This document shows positions 54,647 through 64,000 of a stretch of DNA of 64,000 nucleotides, one piece after another. The notes under the pieces were generated by a model. That model ran no database searches. It was not told where the DNA came from and worked only from the letters and a program-made list of their open reading frames with translations. A program made the translations under genes and the position numbers. The DNA comes from Candidatus Ozemibacter sibiricus (GTDB lineage: Bacteria > Muiribacteriota > Ozemobacteria > Ozemobacterales > Ozemobacteraceae): contig QOQW01000029.1 of NCBI GenBank assembly GCA_003327425.1, forward strand, positions 1 through 64,000, given 5' to 3'. Each line of letters begins with the position of its first letter. The stretch's first letter is position 1.

Positions 54647-54912
54647 CGTTCTCTCCATCGCGGCGGGGCCTCCTTTGGAGCGGATACCGAGGCGCGGCAC
54701 GCCAGCGCGCGCCGGCGACATGAAACCACGCCGGCGCCTCGCCCGCAAGGAGCCGGCAAAAATTTCGCAGCTGGCGTCGTTCGCGTCGTTCAGAGCGTTC
54801 CCAAAAGAGAGTGAGACGTCAGAGACAAGAGTTGAAGAGATGCATTCGTCTCTTGTACACCGTATCTCACGCGCGCACCCCTGCCATAGCCGGACGATGA
54901 GCGGTTTTTATC
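54647..54912. promoter_or_regulatory. guaA-guaB divergent control region
   Basis: About 265 bases between the guaA start and the guaB promoter. An imperfect dyad with ACAAGAG and CTCTTGT arms, itself embedded in GAGACG/CGTCTC arms, lies at about 54812-54856 and could bind a purine regulator acting on both directions. No matching known box was recognised. Confidence 0.3.
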
Positions 54913-54941
54913 TAGACATTTCGGCATGTTTCTGGTATAAT
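54913..54941 (+). promoter_or_regulatory. Purine operon promoter
   Basis: TAGACA (54913-54918), a 17-base spacer and perfect TATAAT (54936-54941) form the best sigma70-type promoter in the window, giving a leader of about 255 bases before guaB. Confidence 0.75.
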
Positions 54942-54975
54942 GCGCCCGTCCGAAATTCCTGGGAAGGCGAGCAAA

Positions 54976-55197
54976 ATGCTGATGAGCAGCGGTCTAGCGC
55001 CCACACCCCCGTTTGACGGGCGAGCGACAGCCCCGTGGGCTGCACCGCCGCCGAGCACGGCGCAACCGCCGCGTCGACCGGCTCGCGCCGCCCCCCCGAC
55101 CCCGAACTCTCCCCAGATAGAAACTCCCCCTCGAAGGAATGATGCGAGGGGGAGTGCCATTTCTGGGGCCTTTTCCGGTGAAGAGACGAGGAGATAA
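54976..55197 (+). CDS. Possible leader peptide upstream of guaB
   Basis: A 73-codon frame (starting MLMSSGLAPTPPF) with a GGAAGGCGAG-like site upstream. It lies wholly inside the guaB leader and ends eight bases before the guaB ATG, so ribosomes translating it would cross the terminator-like hairpin. The product is rich in Pro, Ala and Arg with no known family. It may be a true leader peptide or an accident of high GC. Confidence 0.3.
   Translation: MLMSSGLAPTPPFDGRATAPWAAPPPSTAQPPRRPARAAPPTPNSPQIETPPRRNDARGSAISGAFSGEETRR
55111..55174 (+). terminator. Attenuator-like nested hairpin in guaB leader
   Basis: Inner arms of 11 bases (55123-55133 with 55145-55155) and outer arms of seven bases (55111-55117 with 55162-55168), followed by CCTTTT. 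It ends about 30 bases before the guaB start codon, the usual place for an intrinsic terminator controlled by a riboswitch or leader translation. No known aptamer was recognised upstream. Confidence 0.55.
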
Positions 55198-55204
55198 GAT
55201 CCCC

Positions 55205-56701
55205 ATGGCTCGTACCGTGCTCACTGAACCCTCTCGCGCCATCGCCGAGTTCCGACTGCTCCCTGGGCTGACCCGCCCCGACACGACCATCGACCGGGTT
55301 TCCCTGGCCACGCGGCTGGCTGCCCGACCCGACGGGCGCGGCTGGGTGAGCCTGAACATCCCCCTCGTCGCGGCGGCCATGCAGGCGGTGTCGGGCGTGG
55401 CGATGGGCATCGCGCTGGCCCGGCACGGAGGAGTGGCGTTCGTCTACGCGTCCCAGCCCGTGGCGGCCCAGGCCGAGATGGTGCGCCGCATCAAGCACCA
55501 CAAGGCCGGGTTCGTCCAGCCGCTGACCGTGGCCCCCGACCTGCCCATCGCCCAGGTGGCGGAACTGGCCGCCGCCAAAGGGTTCTCCACCTTTCCGGTG
55601 GTCGACGACCAGGGCCGGCTGCTCGGCCTCTTGACCCGGCTCGACTACGCCCCGGCCCGCCATGCCCATCTCACCGCGCGCGATCGCATGATTCCGCGCG
55701 ACCGTCTGGTGGTCGGGCGCGAGCCGCTCACCCTGCGGCAGGCCAACGACCTGCTGATGGACAGCCACCAATCGGTGCTGCCGATCGTCGACGCCGAGGA
55801 ACGCTTGCGCGACCTCGTCTTCCGCAAAGATATCGAGAACCACCTCGACCATCCCGACGAGGTGGTCGACGAGCGCAAGCGCCTGCTGGCCGCGGCGGCC
55901 ATCAATACCCGCGACTACCGCGAGCGGCTGCCCGCCCTGGTCGAGGCCGGCGTCGACGTCGTCGCCATCGATTCCTCCGACGGCCATTCCTGCTTCCAGG
56001 CCGACACGCTGGCTTTCGCCCGCCAGGCGTTCCCCAGCCTGCCGGTGATCGGCGGCAACATCGTCACCGCCGAGGGGTTCCGCTTCCTGGCCGAAGCGGG
56101 GGCGGCCGGGGTGAAGATCGGCATGGGCGGCGGCTCGATCTGCATCACCCAGGAGCAGAAAGGCACCGGCCGCGGGCTGGGCACCGCCATCTTGGAGGTA
56201 GCGGCGGCCCGCGACGAGTGGCAGCGCCGCACCGGCGCGTATCTTCCCCTCATCGCCGACGGCGGCATCGTCACGGCGAAGGACATGGTCATCGCCCTGG
56301 CGCTGGGCGCCGATGCCGTGATGCTCGGCCGCTATTTCGCCCGGTTCGAGGAATCGCCGACCGAGAAGGTGCTGATAAACAATCGCGTCATGAAGCCGTA
56401 TTGGGGCGAGGGCTCGCCCCGCGCCCGCGCCTGGCAGGGCGCGCGCTACGGGCAAGCCGCCTTCGCCGAAGGGGTCGAGGGCTACGTCGAGTATGCCGGG
56501 CCGTTGCGCGACAACCTGGCCGAGACCCTGGCCATCCTGCGCTCGGCGCTGTGTTCGGCCGGGGCGCACGATCTGGACGAACTGCACCGGGAGGCGGTGC
56601 TCGAGGTGGTCTCGGCGCTATCGATCCGGGAAGGGCAGCCGCACGACATCCATCTGCCCGGCACCGCGACCGGCCTGGCGGCCAAGACGTGGGGGGTGTG
56701 A
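55205..56701 (+). CDS. guaB: IMP dehydrogenase
   Basis: A 498-residue enzyme oxidising IMP to XMP, the first step toward GMP. The barrel is interrupted by two CBS domains (about 100-215). The catalytic cysteine is C313 in GMGGGSICITQEQKG. This loop (GGGSICIT.EQKG.GRG) and the flap region with KPYWGEGSPRARAW resemble the Tritrichomonas-type IMPDH more than the common GPGSICTTR form. AGGAG lies 11 bases upstream of ATG. It heads the purine operon; purA starts one base after its stop. Confidence 0.96.
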   Translation: MARTVLTEPSRAIAEFRLLPGLTRPDTTIDRVSLATRLAARPDGRGWVSLNIPLVAAAMQAVSGVAMGIALARHGGVAFVYASQPVAAQAEMVRRIKHHKAGFVQPLTVAPDLPIAQVAELAAAKGFSTFPVVDDQGRLLGLLTRLDYAPARHAHLTARDRMIPRDRLVVGREPLTLRQANDLLMDSHQSVLPIVDAEERLRDLVFRKDIENHLDHPDEVVDERKRLLAAAAINTRDYRERLPALVEAGVDVVAIDSSDGHSCFQADTLAFARQAFPSLPVIGGNIVTAEGFRFLAEAGAAGVKIGMGGGSICITQEQKGTGRGLGTAILEVAAARDEWQRRTGAYLPLIADGGIVTAKDMVIALALGADAVMLGRYFARFEESPTEKVLINNRVMKPYWGEGSPRARAWQGARYGQAAFAEGVEGYVEYAGPLRDNLAETLAILRSALCSAGAHDLDELHREAVLEVVSALSIREGQPHDIHLPGTATGLAAKTWGV

Positions 56702-56702
56702 G

Positions 56703-57929
56703 ATGCCGGCGACCATGATCCTGGGCGCCCAATGGGGCGATGAAGGGAAGGGCAAGATCGTCGACCTGCTGGCCGGCCGCATGGACCTCGTCGCTCGCTT
56801 CCAGGGCGGGGCCAATGCCGGGCATTCGGTGGTGGTCGACGGTCGACGGGTGGTGCTGCACCAGTTGCCATCGGGGGTGTTGCATCGCCACTGCCGCAAT
56901 CTGATCGGGCCAGGCTGCGTGACCGACCCCATCGCCTTGCGGCGCGAAATCGACGAGCTGCGGCCGGTGGCCGGCGAGCTGGGCCCCGACCGGCTGCTGA
57001 TCGCCCCGGGAGTGCATCTGGTGACCCCGCTGCATCGCTGGTTCGATGCCCAGCAAGGCGAAGCGATCGGCACCACCGGCCGCGGCATCGGCCCCTGCTA
57101 CACCGACAAGGTCGCCCGCGCCGGCTTGCGCCTGGGCGATCTGCTGACGAGCGATCCGCGACCCCGGTTGCAGGAGCATCAGGAGCGGTTCACGGCGCTG
57201 GCCCGCGCCTTCCGGCTGCCCGCGCCACCGCCCGCCCTCGAGCAGTGGCAGCCGGCTTTCTGCGAGGCGCTGGCCGCGCTTCGTCCGTTGGTCGGCGACG
57301 TGGTCGACGCGATCAGGGAGGTCGACCGACGGGGCGGGCGCCTGTTGCTGGAAGGCGCGCAAGGCACCCTGCTCGATCTCGACCACGGCACCTATCCGTT
57401 CGTCACCAGCTCGTCGACGACGGTGGGCGGCGCCCTCAGCGGCATCGGCTGCTGGGTCGACCTCGACCGGCGAGTGGGAGTGGCCAAGGCCTACGCCACC
57501 CGGGTCGGACACGGGCCGTTCCCCACCGAGCTGACCGACGAGCTGGGCGAGCGGCTGCGCCAGCGCGGCCACGAGTACGGCGCCACCACCGGCCGTCCCC
57601 GCCGCTGCGGCTGGCTCGATCTTCCCCTGCTGCAGCGGGCCTGCGTGATCAACGGGTTCAACCGCCTGGTCATCACCAAGCTCGATGTGCTGACCGGGCT
57701 GCCGACCATCCGGGTGGCGACCGCGGTCGACCCGCACGGACAGCCGATCTACGCCGAGCTGCCGGGCTGGTCCGAGCCGCTGACCGGCTGCACGCATCGC
57801 AACCATCTGCCGACCGCCTGCCAGGCCTTCCTCGCTTTCCTCGAAGAACGGCTGGAAGTGCCGGTGGCGGCCATTTCCATCGGTCCTGACCGTCGAGAGA
57901 CCATCGTGGAGGACATGCTATGGCACTGA
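56703..57929 (+). CDS. purA: Adenylosuccinate synthetase
   Basis: A 408-residue enzyme joining IMP and aspartate with GTP. The P-loop-like GDEGKGK is at 12-18; GGANAGHSVVVDG, GTTGRGIGPCYTDK and LLEGAQGTLLDLDHGTYPFVTSS follow. It is slightly shorter than the common 430 residues, with the shortening mostly in surface loops. The start follows the guaB stop by one base and the purM start overlaps its end by ten bases, so guaB, purA and purM are translated together. Confidence 0.97.
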   Translation: MPATMILGAQWGDEGKGKIVDLLAGRMDLVARFQGGANAGHSVVVDGRRVVLHQLPSGVLHRHCRNLIGPGCVTDPIALRREIDELRPVAGELGPDRLLIAPGVHLVTPLHRWFDAQQGEAIGTTGRGIGPCYTDKVARAGLRLGDLLTSDPRPRLQEHQERFTALARAFRLPAPPPALEQWQPAFCEALAALRPLVGDVVDAIREVDRRGGRLLLEGAQGTLLDLDHGTYPFVTSSSTTVGGALSGIGCWVDLDRRVGVAKAYATRVGHGPFPTELTDELGERLRQRGHEYGATTGRPRRCGWLDLPLLQRACVINGFNRLVITKLDVLTGLPTIRVATAVDPHGQPIYAELPGWSEPLTGCTHRNHLPTACQAFLAFLEERLEVPVAAISIGPDRRETIVEDMLWH

Positions 57930-59185
57930 AATCTTCTTCTGTCTGCGCGAGCGGGTTCGATCGTTCCGATCGACCCGATCGCCTCGACCCGCCGCCGACC
58001 ACGTCCCCCGCGGTCGTTCCCGGCTCCGCCGACGTCCCGGCGGCCGCGGCCGGAGCGGGCCAGACGGCCTCTCAGCCGCAAGGCGGCGTGGCCGGGTTCG
58101 ACCTCGATGGCGGCCATCGCTGCTCGCGCATGGCCTACGGCTGGGCCGCCCGCACCTTCGCCGAGCGGCGCGAACGCCCGGGCGAAGTGGCCCTGACCGG
58201 CACCGGCGCCTTCAGCAATGTGCTCATCTTCGGCGAGACGCGCCTGGGCATCACCTCGGACGGCATCGGCAGCAAGATCGAGGTCGCCGAACGGCTGCGC
58301 CGCTATGACACCCTGGGCTACGATCTGATGGCGATGGTGGTCGATGATCTGGTCGCGCTGGGCATCGAACCGACCAACGTTTCGAACATCCTCGACGTCG
58401 ATCGGCTCGACGAGCGGGTGGTCGACGAGCTGATGCGCGGCCTGCACGATGCGGCGCGGGCCGCCCGCGTCGCCGTCACCGGCGGCGAGATCGCCGAACT
58501 CGGCTCGCGCATCGGCGGCTACGGCGACGGCATGCACTTCAACTGGTGCGCCACCGCGGTCGGGGTGCTGCCCCGCGGGCGCCGCCCCCTCACCGGCGAA
58601 GAGATCGCCCCCGGCGACTCCATCATCGCCTTGTACAGTCCGGGATTTCGCAGCAACGGGTTCACCGTCGCCCGCCGCATCCTGGAACAGCGCCTCGGGC
58701 CGCGCTGGCACGAACAATCAGCGGCGGGCGCCGACGACCGCGGGACGAGCCGCACCTGGGGCGAGGTGATGCTGACCCCCTCGGTCATCTATGCGCCGCT
58801 GATCATCGACTTCCTTGCCACCGGCCTGCCGGTGCACGGCCTGGCCCACATCACGGGCGGCGGGGTGCCCGACAACCTCGGACGCATCCTGCGCGTCGGC
58901 AGCAACGGGGCCATCCTCGACAACCTGTTCCCCGTCGAGCCGGCCGTGCTCCAGTTGCAGGAATGGGGCGGCATTCCCGATCGCGAAGCCTACCGCACCT
59001 GGAACATGAACCAGGGCATGCTGGTAATCGTGCCGCCGGCCGTCGAACCCAACGCGCTGGCCTGGTTCGCCCGGCGCGGGGTCACCGCCCGCGTGGCCGG
59101 GCACGTCGTCTTCGGGCCGGGGCAGGTGCTGCATTCGCGCGGGCGCGAAGGCGGCCTGCTCGAATACCTGCATACGGGGAAATGA
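57920..59185 (+). CDS. purM: Phosphoribosylaminoimidazole synthetase (AIR synthase)
   Basis: A 421-residue PurM, which makes AIR from FGAM. The family region begins near GFDLDGGHRCSR (about residue 59), so residues 1-58 are an extra Ser/Pro/Ala-rich extension. Motifs include ITSDGIGSKIEVAE, MVVDDLVALG and HITGGGVPDNLGRIL. The start overlaps the purA stop by ten bases and no better start is visible downstream, so the extension is probably real. It ends in an ATGA overlap with purSL. Confidence 0.95.
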   Translation: MALKSSSVCASGFDRSDRPDRLDPPPTTSPAVVPGSADVPAAAAGAGQTASQPQGGVAGFDLDGGHRCSRMAYGWAARTFAERRERPGEVALTGTGAFSNVLIFGETRLGITSDGIGSKIEVAERLRRYDTLGYDLMAMVVDDLVALGIEPTNVSNILDVDRLDERVVDELMRGLHDAARAARVAVTGGEIAELGSRIGGYGDGMHFNWCATAVGVLPRGRRPLTGEEIAPGDSIIALYSPGFRSNGFTVARRILEQRLGPRWHEQSAAGADDRGTSRTWGEVMLTPSVIYAPLIIDFLATGLPVHGLAHITGGGVPDNLGRILRVGSNGAILDNLFPVEPAVLQLQEWGGIPDREAYRTWNMNQGMLVIVPPAVEPNALAWFARRGVTARVAGHVVFGPGQVLHSRGREGGLLEYLHTGK

Positions 59186-62100
59186 CCGTGGCCACGAGCA
59201 TCGTTCGCTGGATCAAACGCGAGCTGCCCGACCCCCTGGGCGCGCGGGTCGCCGAGCAGGCCCGCCGCTGGCTCGGCCTGGAGACGGGCGAAGTGCGCAC
59301 CGCCAAGATCTTCTTGATTCCCGAGCATCTGGGGCCCGACGCCCAGCGCCGCCTGGCCGAAGAGGGCCTGCGCGATGCGGTCTTGCATGAGATCGGCAGC
59401 AACGCCCTGCCGCCCTGGCCCGAGTTTCGGGCGGCGCTGCGCATCTCGCGGCGTCCCGGGGTCACCGACGACGAGGGCCGGTCGGCCCAGCGGGTGCTGG
59501 CCGACCTGCTCGATCGACCCCTGCCCGGCCATCAAGAGATCTTCACGCAAGATCTCTACCTGTTCGCCAACCCGCTCAGCCCGCACGATCTCGAACGCCT
59601 GGGCCGCGAACTCCTGGCCAACCCCTTGATCGAACGGATCGAACCGCTGACCCCCGATCGGGCCTTCGCCCTCCTCGAGGGAGGGGTGCCCATGTTCGCC
59701 GCCGGCCAGCCATCGCCAGCAAGTGATTTCCCTTCGTCGGCGACCGCTCTGCCATCGCCAGCCGCCAGCCTGGCCTCGCCGACGCAGGGCCGGGGCGCCG
59801 ACCCTCATCGGCTAGTCGATCCCACCGTCGAGGCCATTCCCCTGCCCGAGGCTCCCGAGGCGCTGCTGGCCTTGTCGCGCGACCGCCTGCTCGAGCTCGA
59901 CCTCGCCGAGATGGAAGCCATCAGGGCCTACTACGCGCGCCCCGAAGTGCAGGAGGCGCGCCGGGCCGCCGGCCTGCCGGCCGCCTGTCCCACCGATGCC
60001 GAACTCGAGATTCTGGCCCAGACCTGGTCAGAGCACTGCAAGCACAAGGAGTTCGCCGCCACCATCGTCTGCCGCGATCTCGACACTGGCGAAGAGACCG
60101 TCATCGACTCGCTGTTCCGCACCTTCATCCGCCGCCCGACCGAGCTGCTGCGGGCCGAGCAGCGGCGGGTCGGTACCGACTGGCTGGTCAAGGTCTTCGA
60201 CGACAACGCCGGGGTGGTCAAGATCGACGACCAGCGGCTGTTCGTCTGGAAGGTCGAGACCCACAACTCCCCCTCGGCCCTCGACCCCTACGGCGGCGCC
60301 CTGACCGGCATCGTCGGCAACAACCGCGACCCGCTCGGCACCGGTCGCGGCGGGGCCCGTCTGCTGTTCAATACCGACGTGCTCTGCTTCGCCCCGCCCG
60401 ACGATGCCAGCCCCCGGTTTCCGGGCCAGTTGCCGCCCCATCGCATTCTGCAAGGGGTCAGACGCGGCATCGAAGACGGCGGCAACAAATCGGGCGTGCC
60501 GACCATCAACGGCGCCATCGTCTTCGACCCCCGCTACCGCGCCAAACCCCTGGTCTTCTGCGGCACCGGCGCCGTGCTGCCCGCCACCCTGGCCGGGCGG
60601 CCGGCCTGGGTGAAGGAGGTCGATCCGGGCGATCTGATCGTCATGGCGGGCGGCCGGGTCGGCCGCGACGGCATCCATGGCGCCACCTTCTCCTCGGCGG
60701 CGGTCGCCCCCGATTCGCCGGCCTCGGCGGTGCAGATCGGCAGTCCGCTCACCCAGAAGATGCTGAGCGACTTTCTGGCCCGGGCCTGCGCCGAAGGCCT
60801 GATCAAAAGCTGCACCGACAACGGGGCGGGCGGTCTGTCGTCGTCGATCGGCGAACTGGCCTGGTCGTGCGGCGGCGCCAGCGTGCAGCTCGACGCCGTG
60901 CCGCTGAAATACCCCGGCCTGCGCCCCTGGGAGATCTTCCTATCGGAATCGCAAGAACGCATGACCTTGGTCGTCGAACCCGACCGGTGGCCAGCCCTGC
61001 AGGCGCTCGCCGAACGGCTCGAAGTCGAGGTTTCCTGCCTGGGGCGGTTCACCGCGACCGGACGGCTCGAAGTCCGCTATGGCGATCGGCCCGTCGCCGA
61101 TCTCGACCTCGACTTCCTGCACGAGGGGGTGCCCCGCAAACGGCTCGAAGCGGTCTGGCGAGCCCCGGTCATCAGCCCGGCCCGCCTGCCCGCCGAACTC
61201 GACCTCGGCCGGACGCTCAAGCTCCTGCTGCGCCGCTGGAATATCTGCAGCCGCGAGAGCATCATCCGGCAGTACGATCACGAGGTCAAAGGGCGCACGG
61301 TGATCAAGCCCCTGATGGGCCCGCGCGGCCACGCCCCGCAGGATGCGGCCGTGATCCGGGTCGATTTCTCCGATTTCGTCGGCATCGCCGTCGCCAACGG
61401 CATCTGCCCGCGCTACGGCGATCTCGATGCGTACGCCATGTCGGCCGGCGCCTTCGACGAGGCCGTGCGGCAGATCATCGCGGTGGGCGGCCGGCTGCCG
61501 CGCCGCGACCGTCCCGACCACCGGTTCTGGAGCGGCAACGACAACTTCTGCGTGCCCGACTCGGTGTACGATCCCGAAACCAATCCCGATGGGCGGGAAA
61601 AACTGGGCAAGCTGGTGCGCATGTGCCAGGCCCTGGCCGACCTGTCGCTGGCCTACGGGGTGCCGATGACCTCGGGCAAGGACAGCATGAAGAACGATTT
61701 CCGGTGCGGGCGCGAGAAGATCTCGGTACCGCCGACGGTGCTGTATTCCCTGACGGCACGCATCGATGACGTGCGCCGCGTGACCACCGCCGAGTTCAAG
61801 CACGCCTGCGATCTGGTCTACCTGGTCGGCCCGACGTATGAAGAGCTGGGCGGTTCGGAGCTGCTCGACGAGCTGGGCCTGCCCGGCGGCGCGGTGCCAC
61901 GGGTGCGGCCGGCCGAAGCCCGAGCCCGCTACGATCGGGTGAGCGAAGCGCATGAACGCGGCCTGCTCGCCTCCTGCCACGATCTGTCGGATGGCGGGCT
62001 GGCCGTCGCCCTGGCCGAGGCGGCGTTCGGCGGCGACCTCGGCGCCGACCTCGAGCTGCCGGCGCGCGGGCTGCCCACCCCGGTCTGGCTGTTCGCCGAG

Positions 62101-62295
62101 AGTCATTCCCGGTTCCTGGTCACGGTGCCGCCAGCCTGCGAAGCGGCCTTCACCGCGCTGTTCGGCGACGACGCGCTGCGGCTGGGCGCCGTCACCGCCC
62201 AGCCGCGGCTCCGCGTGCGACGCGAGGGGCGGGTGGTGCTCGACGAAGCGCTGGCGGACCTGCTGGCCGCCTGGAACCGCGATCTGGAGGCCTAG
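59182..62295 (+). CDS. purL: FGAM synthase, PurS-PurL fusion
   Basis: A 1037-residue synthetase subunit producing FGAM. Residues about 30-160 look like a PurS domain: RRPGVTDDEGRSAQRVLADLL and LGRELLANPLIERIE. A Ser/Ala/Pro-rich linker lies near 175-205. The PurL core has WSEHCKHKEF, VETHNSPSALDPYGGA, TFSSAAVAPDSPASAVQIGSP split here, and TSGKDSMKND. Stand-alone PurS is thus fused while the glutaminase PurQ is separate. ATG overlaps the purM stop by four bases; a GTG two codons later is an alternative start. purQ follows one base after its stop. Confidence 0.95.
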   Translation: MTVATSIVRWIKRELPDPLGARVAEQARRWLGLETGEVRTAKIFLIPEHLGPDAQRRLAEEGLRDAVLHEIGSNALPPWPEFRAALRISRRPGVTDDEGRSAQRVLADLLDRPLPGHQEIFTQDLYLFANPLSPHDLERLGRELLANPLIERIEPLTPDRAFALLEGGVPMFAAGQPSPASDFPSSATALPSPAASLASPTQGRGADPHRLVDPTVEAIPLPEAPEALLALSRDRLLELDLAEMEAIRAYYARPEVQEARRAAGLPAACPTDAELEILAQTWSEHCKHKEFAATIVCRDLDTGEETVIDSLFRTFIRRPTELLRAEQRRVGTDWLVKVFDDNAGVVKIDDQRLFVWKVETHNSPSALDPYGGALTGIVGNNRDPLGTGRGGARLLFNTDVLCFAPPDDASPRFPGQLPPHRILQGVRRGIEDGGNKSGVPTINGAIVFDPRYRAKPLVFCGTGAVLPATLAGRPAWVKEVDPGDLIVMAGGRVGRDGIHGATFSSAAVAPDSPASAVQIGSPLTQKMLSDFLARACAEGLIKSCTDNGAGGLSSSIGELAWSCGGASVQLDAVPLKYPGLRPWEIFLSESQERMTLVVEPDRWPALQALAERLEVEVSCLGRFTATGRLEVRYGDRPVADLDLDFLHEGVPRKRLEAVWRAPVISPARLPAELDLGRTLKLLLRRWNICSRESIIRQYDHEVKGRTVIKPLMGPRGHAPQDAAVIRVDFSDFVGIAVANGICPRYGDLDAYAMSAGAFDEAVRQIIAVGGRLPRRDRPDHRFWSGNDNFCVPDSVYDPETNPDGREKLGKLVRMCQALADLSLAYGVPMTSGKDSMKNDFRCGREKISVPPTVLYSLTARIDDVRRVTTAEFKHACDLVYLVGPTYEELGGSELLDELGLPGGAVPRVRPAEARARYDRVSEAHERGLLASCHDLSDGGLAVALAEAAFGGDLGADLELPARGLPTPVWLFAESHSRFLVTVPPACEAAFTALFGDDALRLGAVTAQPRLRVRREGRVVLDEALADLLAAWNRDLEA

Positions 62296-62296
62296 C

Positions 62297-63208
62297 ATGA
62301 GCGACCGACCACGGATCGTGATCGCCGCCGGCTGCGGCATCAACTGCGAAGAAGAACTGGCCGCCGCCTGGGAGCTGGCCGGCGCCGACCCCGAGATCGT
62401 GCTGCTGAGCGACCTGCTGGCGCGCGCGCACCCGCTGGCCGGCGCCCAGGCCTTCTGCCTGCCCGGCGGGTTCTCGTTCGGCGACGATTTGGGCTCGGGC
62501 ATGGTGCTCGCCTGCCGTCTGCGCCATCGCCGCACGGGCGCGGGAGAACGGTTCGCCGACCATCTGCGGCGGTTCCTCGAGCGGGGCGGATTCGTTCTCG
62601 GCATCTGCAACGGGTTTCAGGTACTGGTCAAAATGGGGGCCCTGCCCAACCTCGCCGGCACCTGGACCCAGGAGGTCACGCTGGCGGCCAATGCCTCGCG
62701 CCGGTTCGAGAATCGCTGGTGCCACCTGCGAACCAACCCCGACACGCCGGCGTCGTGGGTGGCTGGCCTGGGCCGGCTCGAGCTTCCCGTACGCCACGGC
62801 GAAGGACGGTTGCTGGCGAGAGATGCCGCGGTGCTCGCCGAGATCCGGCGGCGCGGCCTCGACTTCCTGCACTACACCGATGAAGAGGGCCGCCCCACCG
62901 CGACCTACCCCGCCAACCCCAACGGTTCGGAAGGCGCGATCGCCGGGCTGGTCGACCCGAGCGGCCGGATCATCGGGCTGATGCCGCACCCTGAGGCTTT
63001 CTTGCACTCGACCCTGCACCCTGACTGGGCCGGCCGGCGACGGCGCGGCGCCGCCGACGATGCCCGTCCGGCCGACGGACTGCGCTTTTTCCTGGCCATG
63101 CGCCAGGCGATGGCCGAATCGACACCACTCCATTTCCCTGCCAATGTCGAGCCGTGTTCTGAAGCGGCCGAAGCGATTTCTGCACGAAGCCTGGAGGTCA
63201 GCGCATGA
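62297..63208 (+). CDS. purQ: FGAM synthase glutaminase subunit PurQ
   Basis: A 303-residue class I glutaminase that supplies ammonia to PurL. The nucleophile is C104 in GICNGFQ, with H231 and E233 in MPHPEAF; LPGGFSFGDDLGSG is typical. It is longer than the 220-230 residues of small PurQ and carries a C-terminal extension (about 250-303). It starts one base after the purL stop and ends in an ATGA overlap with purH. Confidence 0.96.
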   Translation: MSDRPRIVIAAGCGINCEEELAAAWELAGADPEIVLLSDLLARAHPLAGAQAFCLPGGFSFGDDLGSGMVLACRLRHRRTGAGERFADHLRRFLERGGFVLGICNGFQVLVKMGALPNLAGTWTQEVTLAANASRRFENRWCHLRTNPDTPASWVAGLGRLELPVRHGEGRLLARDAAVLAEIRRRGLDFLHYTDEEGRPTATYPANPNGSEGAIAGLVDPSGRIIGLMPHPEAFLHSTLHPDWAGRRRRGAADDARPADGLRFFLAMRQAMAESTPLHFPANVEPCSEAAEAISARSLEVSA

Positions 63209-64000
63209 CGCCTCCCCCCTATTGGTCGGTCGACATCCCCCCTCCGCCCGATTTCTCCATCGATGGGGAGAAACCGGCCGCCGACGCGGGCCCCGACAGC
63301 CCCCTCGCCGAGCTGGCGAACCCCTCCGCCAGGGCGGGTCGGCTTCGCCTCAAGCGGGCTTTGCTCTCGGTCTCCGATAAGACGGGGCTGCTCGGGCTAG
63401 CCGAGACGCTGCATCGGTTCAACGTCGAATTGATCTCGACCGGCGGCACCGCCAGCTACCTGCGCGACGCCGGCTTCGAGGTGACCGACATCAGCCAGCT
63501 CACCGGACACAGCGAATGGTTCGCCGGCCGGGTCAAGACCCTGTCGGCCGAGGTGGCCGGCGCCCTGCTGTTCGACCGGATCCATCATGCCGAGGAAGCG
63601 CGCGCCCACGGCATCGCCCCCATCGACCTCGTCGTCTGCAATCTCTATCCCTTCCGAGAGGCCTGGCAGGCGGGCCGGCCGCATCCCGCCCTGGTCGAAG
63701 AGATCGATATCGGCGGCGTGACCTTGATCCGGGCAGGGGCCAAGAATGCCGCCTGGGTCGCAGTCGTGGTCGATCCGTGCGAGTACGAGGCGGTCGCCCG
63801 CGAACTATCGGAGACCGGCGGGTATGTGAGTCTGGCGACACGCCAGCGGCTGCAACGCCTGGCCTTCCGGTACACGGCCGACTATGACGCCCTGATCGCC
63901 ACGGCCTTCGACGAGATGGCCGGCGAACCCTCGCACCGTCTGACCTTCGTCGATGGACGACGGCTGCGGTACGGGGAAAACCCGCACCAGCAGGCGCTCG
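63205..64000 (+). CDS. purH: PurH, cut by the window end
   Basis: The first 265 codons of the bifunctional AICAR formyltransferase/IMP cyclohydrolase. Residues 1-45 are a Pro-rich extension. The cyclohydrolase (MGS-like) domain begins at KRALLSVSDKTGL and includes ELISTGGTASYL, RVKTLSAEVAGALL and VCNLYPF. It runs into RYGENPHQQAL, the start of the formyltransferase domain, where the window stops. ATG overlaps the purQ stop by four bases. It catalyses the last two steps to IMP, the substrate of both guaB and purA in the same operon. Confidence 0.95.
   Translation, partial: MTPPPYWSVDIPPPPDFSIDGEKPAADAGPDSPLAELANPSARAGRLRLKRALLSVSDKTGLLGLAETLHRFNVELISTGGTASYLRDAGFEVTDISQLTGHSEWFAGRVKTLSAEVAGALLFDRIHHAEEARAHGIAPIDLVVCNLYPFREAWQAGRPHPALVEEIDIGGVTLIRAGAKNAAWVAVVVDPCEYEAVARELSETGGYVSLATRQRLQRLAFRYTADYDALIATAFDEMAGEPSHRLTFVDGRRLRYGENPHQQAL

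Follow-up and report, generated by a model that had tools for sequence, protein, structure and literature searches.

As far as is known, purine operons are controlled mostly by repressors or by purine riboswitches, and the pur operon of Bacillus subtilis has a leader terminator in a leader of similar length to the one described here. In the pyrBI operon of E. coli, the leader frame crosses the terminator, and its stop precedes the first gene. The leader that we describe lies in a window of 64,000 nucleotides at the start of contig C25 in a 5.68-Mb Riflebacteria genome (a MAG, G000) whose nearest relative is Candidatus Ozemobacteraceae. It resembles the B. subtilis pur leader, the one with the guanine riboswitch (RF00167), in that a purine operon is preceded by a leader hairpin that is a candidate terminator, but it contains no purine aptamer recognised at the Rfam gathering score or at E<=5. 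Like pyrBI with its pyrL frame, it belongs to a nucleotide biosynthesis operon and has a frame that overlaps a terminator hairpin and ends before the first gene; unlike pyrBI, it precedes purine rather than pyrimidine genes, lacks (by eye) a U-rich pause tract before the hairpin, and has a two-tier hairpin, a strictly kept loop and a weak U tract, its terminator and frame both being candidates read from sequence. With attenuation of the trp type it shares a short leader frame and a candidate terminator, but its frame lacks a string of codons for an amino acid end product, it has no stable antiterminator, and the frame overlaps the terminator rather than stopping before it.

According to the available portions of two reports, closely following translation of the pyrL leader keeps the terminator from acting (PMC5021804; PMC4824070). 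Ribosomes hardly affect a terminator that lies within ~100 bp of the start codon, and those farther downstream undergo partial repression (PMC4824070). In most selected CsrA sites, as presented in the accessible part of PMC7652899, a loop of six bases sits on a short stem, and high stability of the stem may be a disadvantage. The same part of that source describes E. coli glgC, which, like our leader, has a GGA in a hairpin loop and another in the ribosome site; the putative site here differs in its long stem, large loop and missing consensus flanks. The ilvB-II motif of Corynebacterium is likewise conserved in a leader and was investigated along with a frame upstream of it, but it belongs to an amino-acid operon with unrelated genes, as far as the available portion of PMC10272879 describes it. 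The present leader belongs to a known kind, the transcription attenuators; no description of attenuation of a purine operon by leader translation was found in the titles and abstract starts of the open-licence PMC literature that we searched.

The leader and the genes behind it

The features of the locus, in window coordinates, are:

54913..54941, +, promoter TAGACA-17-TATAAT with an extended -10 (TG ahead of the -10 hexamer), TGGTATAAT
54942..54992, +, conserved 5' block, with the presumed start site, the 5' UTR, the ribosome site of the leader and codons 1-5 of its frame
54955..54960, +, AUUCCU, complementary to loop AGGAAU (55135-55140), possible long-range pairing
54961..54967, +, probable leader ribosome site GGGAAGG, judged from sequence
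54976..55197, +, leader frame, 73 codons, proline-rich, crossing the hairpin and ending 7 nt short of guaB
55111..55117, +, outer stem, 5' arm CCCCAGA
55123..55133, +, inner stem, 5' arm ACTCCCCCTCG
55134..55144, +, loop AAGGAATGATG, of which the two species share the first nine bases
55145..55155, +, inner stem, 3' arm CGAGGGGGAGT, with one G-C pair replaced by A-U in the relative G002
55162..55168, +, outer stem, 3' arm TCTGGGG
55169..55176, +, candidate terminator tail CCTTTTCC
55189..55194, +, guaB ribosome site AGGAGA
55205..56701, +, guaB, IMP dehydrogenase (IMPDH) of the PRK07107 kind
56703..57929, +, purA
58109..59185, +, purM, start codon provisional
59173..62295, +, purL, start codon provisional
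62285..63208, +, purQ, start codon provisional
63205..64000, +, purH, continuing beyond the window to contig base 64938

The first-pass annotation had described a strong promoter, a 255-base leader to a purine operon, a nested hairpin with CCTTTT 30 bases ahead of guaB, and a 73-codon frame running through the hairpin to just before guaB, and our analysis recovered all of these. The promoter is near consensus, with 11 of 12 consensus bases, and was the one site of its type found, against 0.1 expected in shuffled sequence. In a second member of the genus (G002, GuaB 90% identical) the promoter reads TGGACA-17-TATAAT, with the same spacing and -10 box. Transcription would start near 54948, to judge from these elements, giving a leader of ~256 nt up to the guaB ATG at 55205. 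The genes behind it are recognisable in the order guaB-purA-purM-purL-purQ-purH, with GuaB scoring 559.9 bits against the PRK07107 model, slightly below the model cut-off of 585. Divergent from guaB, guaA is transcribed the opposite way from 54658, and a further 9-bp G-C hairpin (GCGCCGGCG/CGCCGGCGC), without a T run, lies in the guaA leader at 54709-54737.

The nested hairpin spans 55111-55168, with an inner stem of 11 bp and a loop of 11 nt, and is followed by CCTTTT at 55169-55174, 30 nt upstream of guaB. A 73-nt stretch containing it folds at -35.9 kcal/mol, compared with -23.7 +/- 3.4 in shuffled sequences, none of the 200 being as good; for the whole window leader the fold was matched by 2 of 200 shuffles.

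The TAA that closes the leader frame shares bases with the end of the guaB ribosome site, and the inner hairpin starts 147 nt into the frame. In G002 the leader ribosome site and ATG are conserved and the same frame is open for 67 codons (1275-1478 of L002), with its stop 22 nt before guaB; the two frames differ by a single 3-base gap, located before the hairpin. With per-codon scores of -0.25 and -0.15, codon usage in the frames lay about 4 standard deviations below that of genes (0.27 +/- 0.12), and G+C by codon position was not gene-like either. An equally long open frame would arise by chance about 0.22 times per genome in Markov sequences. A leader peptide of expendable sequence and an untranslated leader would both give such codon usage. 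These results bear on the idea that the frame encodes a genuine small protein and is translated in coupling with guaB, the hairpin being part of the gene. The presence of the frame in both genomes, the similar MLxSS start and TPPxRNDxRGSA stretch, and a tblastn match in G002 at 43% identity (E 2.9e-8) are consistent with such a gene, but the codon usage is not, and third codon positions in the TPPxRNDxRGSA stretch are nearly all unchanged (by eye), which points to constraint at the RNA level. Since there is also no convincing relative elsewhere in the 39 genomes of the phylum (next best E 0.01), we consider a small-protein gene extremely unlikely.

Conservation of the leader and its likeness to terminators

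Upstream of the promoter the two species align poorly, with 17 of 35 bases identical at 54901-54935, mostly those of the promoter. Similarity sets in abruptly at the -10 box, and 46 of 51 bases are identical at 54942-54992 (binomial 1e-7). It falls to 69 of 123 across the central part, rises to 37 of 44 at 55122-55165 (binomial 8e-5), with 29 of 33 in the inner hairpin, and drops to 13 of 24 behind this segment. In the inner stem one G-C pair is replaced by A-U while the ten other pairs are unchanged; both arms are kept nearly base for base, with third codon positions nearly all unchanged (by eye), and the first nine loop bases, AAGGAAUGA, are identical at 9 of 9 positions. Covariation across relatives had been suggested in the first-pass annotation as a check on the structure. 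The structure is conserved in one relative, but the sole compensated pair is not significant, being reached in 246 of 500 shuffles, and has no statistical weight for two sequences.

The outer stem is not homologous between the species, reading CCCCAGA/TCTGGGG in the window and CCTGCCCT/AGGGCGGG in G002, where the tail is TTTTCCCC. TTTTCC follows the outer stem in both, 2 nt on in the window and 0 nt in G002. Taken alone, the outer stems of the window and G002 were no better than those from shuffled flanks (P 0.09 and 0.16), and the G002 folds were less unusual than those of the window, with 11 of 200 shuffles as good for the whole leader and 14 of 200 for the terminator region.

Hairpins of the window's own genome served for comparison: the survey yielded 262 in 776 kb. 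Those lying behind genes were used, 31 of them at a distance of <=50 nt or 33 at <=60 nt, leaving out 20 entries between convergent genes plus more distant ones. Gene calling in this survey was crude, and purA was missed. The ten bases that follow a hairpin contained on average 3.1 T behind genes (31 flanks, <=50 nt) and 1.6 T inside genes (354 flanks). Of the hairpins behind genes, 30% reached the nT value of the window's outer tail, 1.03, as did 12% of those inside genes; for the value of the G002 tail, 2.85, the shares were 9% and 0 of 354. A terminator score that includes hairpin energy was below zero for both tiers in both species, so that a standard cut-off would not call the leader hairpins terminators; the same score was above zero in just 24% of the 33 hairpins behind genes. 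The motif GG[GC]1-5TTTT followed 2 of these 33 hairpins, compared with 2 of the 354 flanks inside genes.

Of the 44 tRNA genes, 30 loci were covered and gave 19 distinct 3' flanks for inspection, and 11 of these had a hairpin while 8 had none. The hairpins mostly had a run of 3-5 T at or just past the 3' arm (by eye), as in GGGGTTTT, GCGGGTTTTG and GGGCCTTTG, and the leader tails GGGGCCTTTT and GGGCGGGTTTT resemble these tails. Behind a tRNA-Pro gene (G000:C7:49877-49949, L180:9877-9949) we observed a G-C hairpin with a flawless stem of 13 bp and hardly any T run (ctcgtt), suggesting that T-poor terminators may serve in this genome. Two leader-like G-C hairpins with short T runs, L142 (G000:C9:52624-52670) and L145 (G000:C14:116261-116307), lie just behind genes and look like the 3' ends of genes.

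We regard partial intrinsic termination at the leader hairpin as likely from its sequence, and the leader is probably a transcription attenuator under one control or another. What the first-pass annotation had called attenuator-like is conserved in G002, the single relative that carries the operon, with the outer stem rebuilt beside the same TTTTCC and with tails like those of tRNA genes, but its terminator score is weak. That weak score, together with the single relative, codons that are not gene-like and an open frame that is easily explained, would also be expected if there were no purine switch, the hairpin merely protecting or partitioning the message (by 5' stability, pausing or fixed partial termination) and the frame being a product of chance in G+C-rich sequence. 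We find this doubtful, since the start of the leader, with its ribosome site and ATG, and the hairpin are conserved well above the middle of the leader, and since the outer stem has been re-formed at the same T tract.

Possible modes of control

Control of the attenuator by translation of the leader frame, by analogy with pyrBI, is the reading that we tentatively adopt. RNA polymerase would start near 54948 and make a leader ending in the two-tier G-C hairpin and UUUU, and where the hairpin folds, a fraction of transcripts would stop before guaB. The leader frame would place a ribosome site and start codon at the extreme 5' end and then cross the hairpin, so that a ribosome close behind the polymerase could cover the 5' arm and allow read-through into guaB-purA-purM-purL-purQ-purH, while a late or absent ribosome would leave the hairpin able to fold. 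The signal would likely be the nucleotide pool or the growth state, setting the lag of the ribosome. At 147 nt from the start codon, the hairpin would lie in the range where the closeness of the ribosome decides the outcome, on the distances given in the available part of PMC4824070. Speculatively, the proline-rich codons could also make the outcome depend on EF-P, in analogy to what the accessible part of PMC5021804 describes. The first-pass annotation had also raised leader-translation attenuation; the layout fits it, but the frame lacks gene-like codon usage. If true, a ribosome-gated attenuator would extend nucleotide sensing in the style of pyrBI to purines and to a phylum without genetics. 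The locus also gives a pattern to scan for in G+C-rich genomes, namely a frame overlapping a hairpin whose arms are re-formed beside a short T run.

A terminator gated by ribosomes needs neither a fixed loop nor fixed third codon positions, and the fixed loop does not fit this reading. The loop and the 5' block, both kept base for base, are consistent with an attenuator controlled by RNA, in which pairing of the loop with the 5' end, or a ligand bound by the 5' block and hairpin, would act without translation of the leader. Such pairing or binding would decide between termination and use of the guaB ribosome site. A 6-nt complement to the loop arises in just ~3% of shuffled loops, and transcripts ending before the 3' arm are predicted, in both species, to fold with AUUCCU paired to AGGAAU. 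The two segments are invariant, however, and the pairing is therefore without covariation; no stable competing antiterminator was predicted in either species, the 5' arm being mostly unpaired or weakly paired once the 3' arm is absent; and conservation is lacking in the middle of the leader, the place expected for an aptamer. Nor does the leader match an Rfam class. We judge RNA control of either form to be unlikely.

The first-pass annotation had offered a riboswitch as the other reading, and a known riboswitch class was not supported. No Rfam family reached its gathering score in the 64-kb window, and at E<=5 only DUF3800-X, mir-2766, asR3 and naRNA4 appeared, far below their thresholds, which we take as chance matches. 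A guanine or other purine riboswitch was rejected, as no covariance model matched at either level. Two other candidates were discarded on comparison with G002. The sequence CTGATGAG after the leader ATG, considered as a hammerhead ribozyme core, is replaced there by CTGTTGAG, and an N-terminal extension of GuaB from the ATG in the loop (55139), open in the window, would meet a stop after two codons in G002.

Control after transcription was also considered, with the AAGGA of the loop and the GGA of the guaB ribosome site forming a two-site CsrA target, the message being repressed or stabilised and the U tract incidental. CsrA is encoded in 31 of the 39 phylum genomes, G000 and G002 included, and of the four GGA triplets in the window leader, the one in the loop and the one in the guaB ribosome site are both kept in G002, in the arrangement of a hairpin-loop site and a Shine-Dalgarno site that the available portion of PMC7652899 gives for glgC. 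A GGA is expected in any ribosome site, though, and the loop AAGGAAUGAUG on its 11-bp stem, with 11 nt in all, is not like the RUACARGGAUGU consensus in a short-stem, six-base loop that the same portion of that report gives for selected sites, the ACA...GU flanks being missing. On its sequence features, a CsrA target seems quite improbable.

Ribosome gating and the contact between loop and 5' end could be combined in a self-locking attenuator, a terminator inside a translated frame whose loop AGGAAU clasps the AUUCCU beside the leader ribosome site. A stopped or slow ribosome would then both permit termination and shut off further translation of the leader, and the gating and the contact would act as one switch for the guaB-purA-purM-purL-purQ-purH operon. 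We regard this combination as very unlikely.

Distribution in the phylum

Among the 39 phylum genomes, G000 and G002 alone have the exact 5' block and match the hairpin model at E 1e-19, and all evidence of conservation thus comes from one species pair. The 19-base 5' block was found with <=2 mismatches in 7 of the 39 genomes, exactly only in these two, and its occurrences in the five others are unrelated stretches (by eye). The hairpin model otherwise matched one A+T-rich terminator-like hairpin in G031 (E 2e-7), followed by hairpins behind genes. In other records, 80 guaB loci were fetched and 73 scanned, 7 being excluded because sequence ahead of guaB was lacking or the match was incomplete; just one of the 73, L039, which is G002, had the hairpin at E<0.01, and the other 72 lacked it at this level. 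A search of viral contigs with the 19-base hairpin pattern found none. An operator or repeated box was rejected, as the 5' block ATTCCTGGGAAGGNGA is exact only at the leader locus of G000 and G002 in a search of three genomes with <=2 mismatches. With mismatches it has 18 sites in G000, 15 in G002 and 23 in G001, against 1, 3 and 16, respectively, for a reversed control.

GuaB of the PRK07107 kind is patchy in its occurrence, with any match in 27 of 56 genomes and at least 60% identity in five, G000 included, and purA had a match in 9 of the 39 phylum genomes. In G001, the third genome of the genus, neither GuaB nor purA was matched. IMP dehydrogenase and adenylosuccinate synthase were missing from most genomes of the family (among G000 to G023, found in G000, G002, G007 and G014; missing in G001 and the rest of G003-G023), one same-genus genome without both enzymes being 96% complete, and purine nucleotide synthesis seems patchy across the family. 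In three records from one genus, L019, L020 and L021 (G036, G033 and G029), the GuaB frames each have one internal TAG, which may be a recoded TAG or a short break.
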